Assembly: GCA_006226425.1 (NCBI GenBank)
Contig: SBGX01000028.1
Location: forward strand, 1 to 64,000
Origin: Bacteroidota bacterium
GTDB taxonomy: Bacteria; Bacteroidota; Bacteroidia; Flavobacteriales_D; Crocinitomicaceae
Direction: 5' to 3'
Length of the DNA stretch: 64,000 nucleotides
The notes beneath the pieces are model-generated. The model saw only the letters and a list, made by a program, of their open reading frames with translations. It did not search any database and had not been told where the DNA came from. A program made the translations under genes and the position numbers. This document shows positions 1-2,605 of the stretch, piece by piece; within the stretch, counting starts at the first letter, position 1; every line of letters starts with the position of its first letter.

Positions 1-30
1 GCCACTCATTAATTAATGAGTGGCTTTTTC
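1..30 (+). terminator. Perfect 24-bp palindrome with T-run
   Basis: Bases 1-24 form a perfect inverted repeat (arm GCCACTCATTAA) followed by TTTTTC, which gives an intrinsic terminator for a plus-strand gene lying left of the window. The hairpin also begins six bases after the stop codon of the minus-strand Cys-rich peptide, so it probably ends that transcript too. The minus-side T-run would lie outside the window and cannot be seen. Confidence 0.8.
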
Positions 31-129
31 TTAGCATTGGCAGCTACAAGTACACTGACAATTGCATTTTTCTCCGCAGTTGCACTGCTCCGTTGTGCAA
101 CATGCTTTTTCTTGTTCTTTGTTCATCAT
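31..129 (-). CDS. 32-residue cysteine-rich metallothionein-like peptide
   Basis: The frame reads MMNKEQEKACCTTEQ and continues into a run of C-x-C motifs ending in CQC and TAA. Ten of 32 residues are cysteine, eight of them in C-x-C spacing, with no hydrophobic core; this looks like a small thiolate metal-binding peptide. The start could be either of two adjacent ATG codons (129 or 126). It lies 55 bp downstream of the SigZ-like gene on the same strand, directly behind a promoter-like element that also occurs before that sigma gene, and it is followed by a hairpin. The sigma protein ends in C-N-C, the same motif that recurs here. Metal binding is inferred from composition. No family is recognised, and a tiny ORF of this kind needs a homologue or expression data for proof. 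Confidence 0.6.
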   Translation of the reverse strand: MMNKEQEKACCTTEQCNCGEKCNCQCTCSCQC

Positions 130-155
130 TCTTTTTTTAAAGGTTTCTATTTAGA

Positions 156-183
156 TAGACGTGGTATTTAAAAAAAGACGCAA
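156..183 (-). promoter_or_regulatory. Promoter-like element before the Cys-rich peptide
   Basis: Read on the minus strand, TTGCGTC (183-177) is followed after 14 bases by ACGTCTA (162-156). The same two words, 15 bases apart, precede the sigma gene at 763-735. CGTC-type -10 sequences are usual for ECF sigma factors, so this is a candidate target of the adjacent SigZ-like factor. The peptide start codon lies 26 bases further on. The element could also be read as a direct repeat of CGTCT bound by another regulator. Confidence 0.5.
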
Positions 184-184
184 A

Positions 185-727
185 TCAACAATTACATTCA
201 TCTATTTTTGAATCTATCACATTTCCATAGCGATCCAATTCGACAGAGCAGCAAGCCACAACCTGCTGTTTCACTTTTTCGCGAGCCCTTTGTACCTGTG
301 ATTTTACGGTTGAATATGCTGTCTTTTGCTGCTCGGCATATTCCTTTTGACTCATCGTCCCCAGGACGGTCGCTCTAAATGCTTTTTGCTGAGCTTCAGG
401 CAAACGCTTGATAAATGGTTGCATACAGTTTAAAAAACGTTCGTCTGGAACTACTTCCTCTGATTCATTCATTGAAGCCACCTCTTTTTCCAGGTCTTCC
501 GACAACTGAATTTTCTTTTTGCGGTAAAAGTCAATGATCGCGTTACGCGTTATTTGATAGACCCAGGAGGTCAATCGTTCCTCCTTCTTTAGTCCGGGCA
601 ATTTTTGGTGAATTTTCAAAAATACGTCCTGCAAAATGTCTTCGGCATCATCTTTTCGACGAACCCTGGAGCGGATAAATCCCAGCATCTGCTCCCGAAA
701 CTCTTTCCAAACTTGTGCTGTTTCCAT
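185..727 (-). CDS. sigZ: ECF RNA polymerase sigma factor, SigZ-like
   Basis: 180 residues with sigma region 2 (about 5-75; DAEDILQDVFLKIH and LTSWVYQITRNAIIDFYR) and region 4 (about 105-155; LPEAQQKAF then SQKEYAEQQKTAYSTVKSQVQRAREK). The tail carries C159-C160, a DRYGNVID motif typical of the SigZ group, and a terminal C178-N-C180; C101 is a fifth cysteine. No anti-sigma gene is adjacent, so control may act through the cysteine tail, as in metal-responsive CorE-type factors; that comparison is inference. The gene follows the OmpA gene after 36 bp and is followed by the Cys-rich peptide. A promoter-like element ends seven bases before its ATG, which suggests autoregulation and a very short leader. 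Confidence 0.85.
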   Translation of the reverse strand: METAQVWKEFREQMLGFIRSRVRRKDDAEDILQDVFLKIHQKLPGLKKEERLTSWVYQITRNAIIDFYRKKKIQLSEDLEKEVASMNESEEVVPDERFLNCMQPFIKRLPEAQQKAFRATVLGTMSQKEYAEQQKTAYSTVKSQVQRAREKVKQQVVACCSVELDRYGNVIDSKIDECNC

Positions 728-734
728 AATGTAT

Positions 735-763
735 TAGACGTACTCTTTTCCAAAAAGACGCAA
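735..763 (-). promoter_or_regulatory. Promoter-like element before the sigma gene
   Basis: On the minus strand TTGCGTC (763-757), 15 bases, then ACGTCTA (741-735). It starts at the base next to the OmpA stop codon and ends seven bases before the sigma ATG at 727. A transcript starting at the usual distance from a CGTC -10 would be nearly leaderless. It matches the element at 183-156 in both words, including five T residues after TTGCGTC. Confidence 0.5.
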
Positions 764-1630
764 TTACTCTTCCACTATTTTTGTCACCTCGATCTCTACG
801 CGCCGATCATACTTGTCTCCCTTCCCCAATTTATAATCGGATTTCATCCCCTTGTGTGAAAGCCTTTTGGCATCCACACCGTTGGCCACCAGAAAACGAT
901 AGATCACTTCTGCTCTGGCTTCCGACAAATCATTCCGGCCCGTATCGTAATCATAACCGTCCATTCCGCGCTTCTGACAACAAATGTGACCCAAAATGAC
1001 TACGTGATACTTTGGATGATCCTTCAACGTTTTGAGCAAATGCCTCAAGCTCGGTTCTGATTCCGGCAAAATGTAGTGCCTCCCCCCTTCAAAAAGAATG
1101 TTTTCCAGGACGATTTTATCCCCCACTTTGGTGTTTTCCGTAAATATTTGTTGGACCTTTTCTTTTGGTTTTTCCAATACTTCTTCTGGGATCGGTTCAG
1201 GCTCAACTACCACCGGTGGAGGACTTTCTTCACGCATCGTAAGGATAATGCTTACCCGTCGATTTTCCTTCCGTTCTTCCTCCTTCTCTGAAGCATTTCC
1301 TTTCAATGACAACTCTCCCACTGCAACAGTATCCGCCTGAGCAAAGGCTTTAAAACCTTTCTCACGAAAGTAATTCATGGCCGATTCAAGACGGCGTTCG
1401 GCCAGCTTTTTATTGTACGATACACTTCCCCGATCATCACAATATGCAAGCACCTGAACCGATTCCACCCCACCCTGAAACTGACTATTCCAGAAGTTTG
1501 CCAGCCTTGTTTTTTCCGTCTCACTCCATGTTGCCGAAGCGGTTTCAAAATAGATGCGATGCTCCACGGTTTCCTGCGCTTTGGGCATAATAAACAAGAG
1601 ACAAAACAAAAGACTGATCGGTATTTTCAT
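764..1630 (-). CDS. Exported protein with two OmpA-like domains
   Basis: 288 residues. An N-terminal signal peptide (MKIPISLLFCLLFIMPKAQ) is followed by a first OmpA-like fold (about 22-130, with YCDDRGSVSYNKKLAERR) and a second (about 170-285, with ILFEGGRHYILPESE and GRNDLSEARAEVIYRFL). A Pro/Glu-rich linker joins them. OmpA domains bind peptidoglycan in the periplasm, and the doubled arrangement without a beta-barrel suggests a periplasmic cell-wall-associated protein. It lies between the alpha/beta hydrolase (81 bp upstream) and the sigma gene (36 bp downstream), all on the minus strand. Substrate and role are unknown. Confidence 0.8.
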   Translation of the reverse strand: MKIPISLLFCLLFIMPKAQETVEHRIYFETASATWSETEKTRLANFWNSQFQGGVESVQVLAYCDDRGSVSYNKKLAERRLESAMNYFREKGFKAFAQADTVAVGELSLKGNASEKEEERKENRRVSIILTMREESPPPVVVEPEPIPEEVLEKPKEKVQQIFTENTKVGDKIVLENILFEGGRHYILPESEPSLRHLLKTLKDHPKYHVVILGHICCQKRGMDGYDYDTGRNDLSEARAEVIYRFLVANGVDAKRLSHKGMKSDYKLGKGDKYDRRVEIEVTKIVEE

Positions 1631-1711
1631 AAGTTGGAAGTACTAAGGGTTAAACGAATCCTCTATTTCATGAACGTATTCCAAAAGCATTCGTTACGTC
1701 CAATCCACTTT

Positions 1712-2605
1712 TTATTTCCGAATAAAATCCAGCACTTGTTTGAGGTAGTTTTCCAGCCCCATTTTGAGTGGGATTTCATCGTGATCACATTGCGCTACCC
1801 GGATGGCTTCCTTGCGGGGCCCTGGGTGATTAGCATAGATCAGTTCGCCATTTTCAATCGCAATATAGGTATCTTCCTTTCCGTGTAACCACAATAGAGG
1901 ACAATCCACTTCTTTAATTTTTTCTGCATTATCAAACTTCAAATCTGTCAGATAATCCGGATTTACGTTGATCAGGGTTGAAGTGTGTACCAGGTTCTCA
2001 ACGGATGCCAGAGGAGATTCCAAAATCATTCTTGTCGGACTGAACTGCTCGCGGTATGCCAGTCGATCAATCGTTGGAATGGCTCCCAAACTATAACCAT
2101 ACACAATCAAACGTTCATTTTGAACTCCACGGGTCAATAACCAGTCAATCGCTGCATCCGCGTCCTCATACAGGCCCTGCTCACTCGCTTCTCCTTCGGA
2201 CATCCCGTAACCCCGGTAATCAACCATTAAAACACCGTAATGATACTTTCCTCCCAGATGAGCCAACAAAGCTGCCCGGGTCCAATAAAAATCCATGTGT
2301 TTTCCTTGTCCATGTAGGTAAAGGATTACCGTATCGGTCGCTATCGTTGATACATCTCCAATATAAACTCCATACAGCGTATACGTTTCTCCGCTTTCCG
2401 CATCTGTAGAACTCATGGTCACCAGGCTGCGTTGAGCCGGATCAATGTCATATTCCTTTGGCAGGTCTCCCAATTCACCCAATGCATACTTCTCAAATTC
2501 GTAGTGATCTATTTTTTTGGAAGGAAAAGCAAAGGAATCCAGGTTGGCTTTTTTACAGGAAAACCATAGCAATGCAAGTCCGATCAATGCAATTATTATT
2601 CTCAT
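1712..2605 (-). CDS. Lipoprotein alpha/beta hydrolase
   Basis: 297 residues with a lipoprotein signal (FSC, Cys17). The hydrolase core has the oxyanion motif LHGQG (97-101), VDYRGYGMSEG, the nucleophile elbow G-Y-S172-L-G, and a plausible triad of S172, D245 (HGKEDTY) and H275 (QCDHDEIP). It resembles membrane-anchored serine hydrolases of the BAAT/prolyl-oligopeptidase-like group; the substrate cannot be read from sequence. Its ATG overlaps the stop codon of the upstream lipoprotein gene (ATGA), so the two are translationally coupled. Confidence 0.85.
   Translation of the reverse strand: MRIIIALIGLALLWFSCKKANLDSFAFPSKKIDHYEFEKYALGELGDLPKEYDIDPAQRSLVTMSSTDAESGETYTLYGVYIGDVSTIATDTVILYLHGQGKHMDFYWTRAALLAHLGGKYHYGVLMVDYRGYGMSEGEASEQGLYEDADAAIDWLLTRGVQNERLIVYGYSLGAIPTIDRLAYREQFSPTRMILESPLASVENLVHTSTLINVNPDYLTDLKFDNAEKIKEVDCPLLWLHGKEDTYIAIENGELIYANHPGPRKEAIRVAQCDHDEIPLKMGLENYLKQVLDFIRK

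Follow-up and report, generated by a model that had tools for sequence, protein, structure and literature searches.

The stretch of DNA analysed here, called the window below, is 64,000 nucleotides long and starts where contig C21 itself starts; the gene nearest to this start, which encodes a small peptide, therefore lies at the contig edge, and the DNA that follows the peptide gene is outside the contig. The features of interest are the following:

1 to 24, no strand assigned: perfect hairpin GCCACTCATTAATTAATGAGTGGC at the edge of the contig, directly beyond the stop codon of the peptide gene
31 to 129, minus strand: gene for a 32-residue peptide with 10 cysteines, mostly in CxC pairs, metallothionein-like in composition
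156 to 183, minus strand: P2, candidate SigZ-type promoter of the cysteine-rich peptide (-35 TGCGTC at 182-177, -10 CGTCTA at 161-156)
185 to 727, minus strand: sigZ, gene for an ECF sigma factor of 180 residues (family TIGR02959), with sigma2 and sigma4 followed by a cysteine-bearing tail
735 to 763, minus strand: P1, candidate SigZ-type promoter of sigZ (-35 TGCGTC at 762-757, -10 CGTCTA at 740-735)
764 to 1630, minus strand: gene for an OmpA-domain protein (Pfam), the upstream neighbour, given as context; P1 begins directly past its stop codon

The sigma factor scored 176.6 bits against TIGR02959, above the curated cut-off of 168.65, and 194.2 bits against NF007215, below the curated cut-off of 212. 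Pfam Sigma70_r2 and Sigma70_r4_2 both exceeded their cut-offs, as expected from the domain definition of an ECF protein. It carries a cysteine in the linker (C101) and a cysteine-bearing tail (C159 and C160, then C178 and C180 separated by one residue). SigZ of B. subtilis belongs to the same NCBIfam family TIGR02959 by the curated cut-off. PMC9239204 describes the group ECF238 as "also called SigZ", and the B. subtilis protein is entered in a table row of PMC10141391 that says only "ECF" and gives no function. The 32-residue peptide resembles bacterial metallothioneins in being very short, rich in cysteine and built on CxC pairs, but differs from them in that it matched no Pfam or NCBIfam family, those for metallothioneins included, and in that its metal binding is a prediction. 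None of the five window ORFs contains an anti-sigma domain recognized by Pfam. The hairpin at 1-24 is terminator-like on the plus strand, while the far side for minus-strand transcripts lies beyond the contig; the contig break at this point may reflect a repeat.

A first-pass annotation of this DNA had pointed out two matching minus-strand elements, TTGCGTC-N14/15-ACGTCTA, and both are present as described: TTGCGTCTTTTTTTAAATACCACGTCTA at 183-156, with 14 bases between the words, and TTGCGTCTTTTTGGAAAAGAGTACGTCTA at 763-735, with 15. It had also placed each of them one or two bases past the preceding stop codon, which is correct (P2 starts two bases past the sigZ stop and P1 one base past that of the OmpA-domain ORF). 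Both are oriented toward the next start codon. Measured from TGCGTC to CGTCTA, the spacer is 16 bases in P1 and 15 bases in P2; the -35 word is immediately followed by TTTTT in P1 and by TTTTTTT in P2, the T run common to both copies being five and that of the peptide copy seven. The -10 word of P2 is separated from the peptide ATG by 26 bases. Only 7 bases separate that of P1 from the sigZ ATG, so that the sigZ transcript is predicted to have almost no leader; in most relatives having a site, the distance from CGTC to the sigZ start is larger than in the window.

A strict search pattern gave no match in 100 dinucleotide shuffles of the window, and P1 and P2 were its sole matches in the whole genome (G000, 3,410,462 bases), where the reversed-pattern control gave none, which bears out the earlier claim that such a repetition is improbable by chance. 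With the looser pattern TGCRTCYNTTN{10,13}CGTCT, the whole genome again yielded P1 and P2 only, and with a still looser one four matches against one in the control, the extra two being L122 and L123. The candidate SigZ regulon of the first-pass annotation is thus reduced, by the strict and looser patterns, to the two sites already seen, with nothing beyond them in this genome, and a large regulon was rejected on these grounds. The outputs visible in the window genome are sigZ and the 32-residue, 10-cysteine peptide only. An RNA element was also considered and rejected: the single Rfam match within window positions 1-2000 scored 16.6 bits against a gathering score of 627. Sigma-70 promoters were rejected as well, with 2 promoter-like sites against 2.8 expected from shuffles and none overlapping P1 or P2.

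CGTCT is a -10 word of ECF sigma factors. The description of the elements as typically ECF holds for this -10 CGTC but not for the -35 TGCGTC, which is not of the usual AAC type. We then compared the -35 region with that of sigma-W, numbered T-36 G A A A C X T T T-27 in PMC6713349. The new element, T G C R T C Y T T T, can be read in the same frame: G-35, C-31 and the T run are shared, while positions -34 and -32, and often -33, differ. The B. subtilis SigZ promoter, as aligned in the same source, has a C at -34 that is matched with G and S of the recognition helix (PMC6713349), and window-type sites, P1 and P2 among them, likewise carry C at -34. The majority sequence of the SigZ recognition helix is SGAKSRVQR, with K142, S143, Q146 and R147 invariant among the 53 proteins (of 81 rows) in the alignment.

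The question of recurrence was addressed at two distances. A search for SigZ covered 59 related genomes, and the DNA around its ten best matches, the window's own genome being set aside, was inspected. The pattern used for recurrence, TGC[GA]TC-N14..17-CGTC, was loosened after the DNA of the relatives had been inspected. By this pattern both sites were found in six of the ten order-level relatives (L004-L008, L011) and neither in the other four (L009, L010, L012, L013), so that the expected recurrence within the order stood for six and failed for four. The SigZ proteins of these four are 29-33% identical to the window protein; in L009 and L013, variants of the element could be recognized by eye. 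In a Crocinitomix genome (L005/L062) the sigZ frame contains stop codons and both promoters are intact, reflecting either a broken gene or an assembly error.

An alignment of ten SigZ proteins, the window's included, served for a wider scan with one genome per species, from which the best 80 of 419 relatives were kept (51 clusters at 70% identity). These come from Bacteroidota, Bacillota, Chloroflexota, Ignavibacteriota, Acidobacteriota, Cyanobacteriota, Pseudomonadota and Thermodesulfobacteriota. A site was present at most 200 bases before the sigZ match in 51 of these best 80 loci, compared to 0 of 80 for the reversed pattern and 0.05 expected from shuffles. Further sites within 1.2 kb of sigZ were found in 73 of the 80, both an upstream and a further site in 47, and either in 77; counted by 70%-identity clusters, the upstream site occurred in 29 of 51, both in 28 and either in 48. 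The recurrence directly before sigZ is incomplete: 29 of the 80 loci have no upstream site, and three (L096, L102, L104) have none within 1.2 kb. Over the best-80 loci, the density amounted to 127 sites per 229 kb near sigZ against 9 per 400 kb farther off, and the loci of other ECF genes had a site in 0 of 19 cases. Among the 127 near sites the spacer was 15 bases in 70, 16 in 55, 17 in 2 and 14 in none. The strict window-like form, TGCGTCTTTTT-N9..12-CGTCTA, preceded sigZ in 14 of the best 80 loci.

Motif and sigma factor also go together at the scale of whole genomes. The strict motif and SigZ were both searched in 395 class genomes, the two draws being taken as the same genomes. The strict motif was detected in 7 of them (9 sites; reversed control, 2 sites in 2 genomes), and SigZ in 29 at E<=1e-30, 6 of which were over the cut-off. 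Six of the 29 genomes with SigZ at this threshold contained the motif, compared to one of the 366 without (Fisher p 6e-7). None of the eight strict sites of these six genomes was more than 364 bases away from the SigZ match, and the ninth was found in G192, a genome without SigZ at E 1e-30. In 49 SigZ genomes a looser pattern gave 92 matches against 34 in the control, with 45 of the 49 genomes matched. By a hand count, 68 of the 92 fell inside SigZ loci and 24 elsewhere, so the regulon looks small genome-wide. Twenty-two of the 24 distal sites were examined (those left out are G491:C6 and G465:C1:10074490): 18 look like chance occurrences, inside longer frames or before genes lacking an obvious link, and four look real (L158, two in L168, and L167). 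The site in L158 precedes a second DUF2703 gene and the one in L167 an FAD oxidoreductase. In L168 (Ktedonobacter racemifer), the two SigZ-type sites point apart with about 100 bases between them, and a further SigZ-like gene, recognized by eye, stands divergent from a gene for a cysteine-rich protein of 115 residues.

The two matching signals are almost certainly SigZ switch sites. The idea that two T-rich stretches merely resemble each other by accident could be entertained for a pair spotted by eye in one window; after the empty shuffles, the uniqueness in the genome and the upstream sites of 51 loci against none for the control, its probability is close to nil, and the recurrence across phyla refutes it. 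The sites could also be operators or activator boxes of another regulator, recognized as a tandem CGTCT...CGTCT repeat about 21 bases apart. Indeed, CGTC or something close to it occurs in either half, and the window sites read CGTCT in both halves, which are separated by about two helical turns. Over the 127 sites, however, the halves are unequal: the first has TGC before it and TTTT after it, and at the position that is T in 92% of the second halves it shows C and T in equal shares. The spacing is 15-16 in 125 of the 127 sites, the first half fits the -35 register of ECF factors and the second their -10 word, and the strict motif is found in a single one of 366 class genomes without SigZ. 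We consider an operator very unlikely. We infer instead that SigZ itself reads the sites and controls its own gene; the assignment of a SigZ-type promoter is well supported by sequence comparison, and so is the autoregulation predicted in the first-pass annotation, given the sites directly upstream of sigZ in 51 of the best 80 loci.

We then surveyed the genes behind the sites that do not serve sigZ in the best-80 loci, 85 in all, of which 76 are near and 9 far. The 76 near sites precede 36 genes for cysteine-rich peptides, 15 ArsM-like, 12 DUF2703, 3 ArsP and 1 ArsR gene, and 9 others. One of these five gene types thus lies behind 67 of the 76 near sites, compared to 0 of the 9 far sites, which agrees with the earlier expectation that such sites would precede metal or thiol stress genes. 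Cysteine-rich peptides were defined by a mechanically set threshold (at most 110 residues, at least 5 cysteines, at least 12%), ORFs and start codons being mechanical too; a point drawn at random in the same DNA had such an ORF ahead of it in 18 of 2000 draws. Two loci, L068 and L084, have actual or apparent cysteine-rich peptides that fail the threshold and were counted as "other". The family seeds were drawn from the SigZ loci themselves, so that seed loci match by construction. Representatives passed the curated cut-offs of NF008823 arsenite methyltransferase (both of the two tested), ACR3, ArsB and MerTP, and target representatives also passed those of Pfam ArsP_1 and DUF2703, whereas an ArsC-like/ArsR fusion scored 114.8 against the ArsC cut-off of 174.3. 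DUF2703 is described in PMC6514093 as part of an arsenic cluster and as arsenate-induced in Rhodococcus.

The SigZ loci were also split by hand into Bacteroidota and others. Of the seven ars or mer seed genes, at least one was found in 32 of 38 non-Bacteroidota SigZ loci (4 of the 38 supplied seeds), and ArsM, DUF2703, ArsC-like, ArsP, ACR3 or ArsB likewise in 32 of 38. Within the DNA fetched, only 5 of 42 Bacteroidota loci contained an ars or mer seed gene. The same seeds were found in 0 of 20 arbitrary 8.5-kb regions from ten SigZ genomes. On the best tree of 76 SigZ proteins (of 81 rows; L047, L062, L078, L109 and L112 were dropped), the target labels, assigned by hand and counting "none" as a label, need 16 changes compared to 35.8 in shuffles. 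The ArsM label changes 6 times, and at least 4 of these changes are forced by well-supported branches. The 16 changes suggest that the promoter stays while the output gene is exchanged. Other kinds of genes are occasionally found behind such sites: a MATE-family exporter, divergent from sigZ, follows a strict site in one class-level relative (L036, 1562-2923, plus strand), and PAP2-domain proteins, probably secreted, follow SigZ-type sites in two phyla (L037, 531-1472, and L117, 2080-2985, both on the minus strand).

SigZ itself carries conserved cysteines: position 101 is kept in 68 of 81 proteins, 159 in 79, 160 in 78 and 180 in 70. Among the 79 proteins used for tail and linker counts (of 81; L062 and L112 were left out), the tail from C159 on has a median of 25 residues and contains at least four cysteines in 76 and exactly four in 43. 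The linker between sigma2 and sigma4 usually has the single cysteine at 101, and CC or CxC in only 2 of 79. Among the loci devoid of sites, L096 also lacks C160 and the terminal cysteine, while L102 and L104 keep these cysteines. An AlphaFold model of SigZ (mean pLDDT 86) matches ECF sigma structures of the PDB domain by domain; its pTM of 0.50 leaves the mutual placing of the domains undefined, and the confidence of the tail is about 70-74.

These traits recall CorE and CorE2 of Myxococcus xanthus, metal-dependent ECF factors formerly in ECF44 and now grouped with ECF238. As portrayed in PMC3107203, PMC8999054 and PMC8103513, they have a cysteine-bearing C-terminal extension, detoxification targets, partial autoregulation and no linked anti-sigma factor. 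SigZ is likewise an ECF factor with a cysteine-bearing extension, and has predicted detoxification targets and predicted autoregulation. CorE needs its cysteine tail for the copper response (PMC3107203), and its linker CxC is also called essential (PMC8999054). Of these marks, SigZ has the cysteine-rich extension. The tail of CorE is longer, with 38 residues and 6 cysteines (PMC8999054), and its linker CxC (PMC8999054) is rare in SigZ, as counted above. The two also differ in their -35 element, of AAC kind for CorE (PMC3107203) and TGCRTC at SigZ sites (TGCGTC in the window), and in their targets, where those known for CorE are copper genes and those predicted for SigZ are cysteine-rich peptides or arsenic-type genes. 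By analogy, SigZ most likely works like CorE, as a self-sensing sigma factor. SigZ would be its own sensor, since no anti-sigma domain was recognized among the five window ORFs.

Taken together, P1 and P2 are probably promoters that belong to a small, autoregulated SigZ module, one that would sense a thiol-seeking metal or metalloid by itself and has a peptide as output. RNA polymerase bearing SigZ would read TGCRTCYTTTT ... CGTCT with 15-16 bases between TGCRTC and CGTC. SigZ would thereby drive its own gene, in a positive feedback, and also a neighbouring detoxification gene, here that of the 32-residue cysteine-rich peptide. Upon binding of the ligand by C101 in the linker and by C159, C160 and C178/C180 in the tail, SigZ would switch its shape, and the peptide would end the signal by binding thiophilic metals or metalloids. 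We infer the inducer, the ligand and the function of the peptide; the ligand would most likely be trivalent arsenicals or another thiol-seeking metal. The peptide could alternatively be a small anti-sigma factor or feedback partner, taking metal from the cysteine tail of SigZ or binding to it, and not a metal store. It is the commonest gene behind the second site (36 of the 76 near sites), and the five window ORFs are devoid of anti-sigma domains. We nevertheless think this role unlikely, since enzymes or permeases (ArsM, DUF2703, ArsP) occupy the same place elsewhere, showing that a dedicated partner is not always needed, and since the peptides, as judged by eye, vary strongly outside their cysteines.

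Concerning the signal of this probable SigZ module, we tentatively propose, at somewhat less than even chances, that SigZ is a one-protein arsenic sensor found across phyla, which would bind trivalent arsenicals by means of a linker cysteine and a CC...CxC tail and drive itself and a single exchangeable detoxification gene, the TGCRTC/CGTCT promoter having been kept while the output genes were swapped on several occasions. If so, the swapped outputs are a metal-binding peptide, a methyltransferase, a thioredoxin-like DUF2703 protein and an organoarsenical permease. Alternatively, the sites are SigZ promoters but SigZ responds to thiol or redox stress in general, or to another metal such as Hg, Cd, Cu or Zn, the arsenic genes being only part of a broader thiol-metal response. 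A MerT-type cluster lies near SigZ in four loci (L073, L087, L100, L101), where one representative is MerTP over the cut-off. In 3 of 80 loci (L052, L077, L078, the last two on one contig), genes for heavy-metal P-type ATPases lie at a distance of 2-4 kb from sigZ, an arrangement for which copper or cadmium would be a suitable signal. The CxC-rich peptide would bind many soft metals, and the MATE exporter and PAP2-domain proteins also point beyond arsenic. CorE itself answers to Cu, and more weakly to Cd and Zn (PMC3107203). Against this broader signal, ars-type genes are present in 32 of the 38 non-Bacteroidota loci, and neither a metal ATPase nor MerT lies directly behind the classified sites. 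We regard it as a genuine possibility, although a doubtful one. For the window genome, arsenic as the signal rests on kinship, since an ars or mer seed gene is present in no more than 5 of the 42 Bacteroidota loci. The ligand proposed for this species likewise comes from the relatives, because its genome has an ACR3 gene over the cut-off without a SigZ site and no ArsM over the cut-off.

Operons of the ars type under ArsR/SmtB belong to the repressor-controlled class, and the control of arsenic genes is otherwise described mainly via ArsR repressors. SigZ loci share their kinds of targets (acr3, arsB, arsC, arsM, DUF2703) but differ in their control, a repressor there and a predicted sigma-factor promoter here. 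ArsR genes are present in some SigZ loci, so that ArsR and SigZ may both act. In the literature covered, which stopped short of the ECF classification of 2021 and of the paper on CorE2, we found nothing that ties SigZ to arsenic or to a TGCRTC/CGTCT promoter. The predicted promoter of this known but little-understood sigma factor is real and deeply conserved, and its target set is unexpectedly coherent, bearing on arsenic and thiol-binding metals. The analysis provides for SigZ a promoter consensus, a likely class of signal and a short list of targets, which, if borne out, would mean that arsenic genes can also be controlled through a sigma factor. As outputs swap behind a fixed promoter, arsenic or metal detoxification becomes a candidate role for other cysteine-rich peptides and enzymes encoded downstream of such sites. 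In the window genome, ACR3 is followed 2 kb on by a weak match to the ArsM model, a methyltransferase scoring 49 bits (G000:C11:82397-85936; L176, L175), in a region without a SigZ site.
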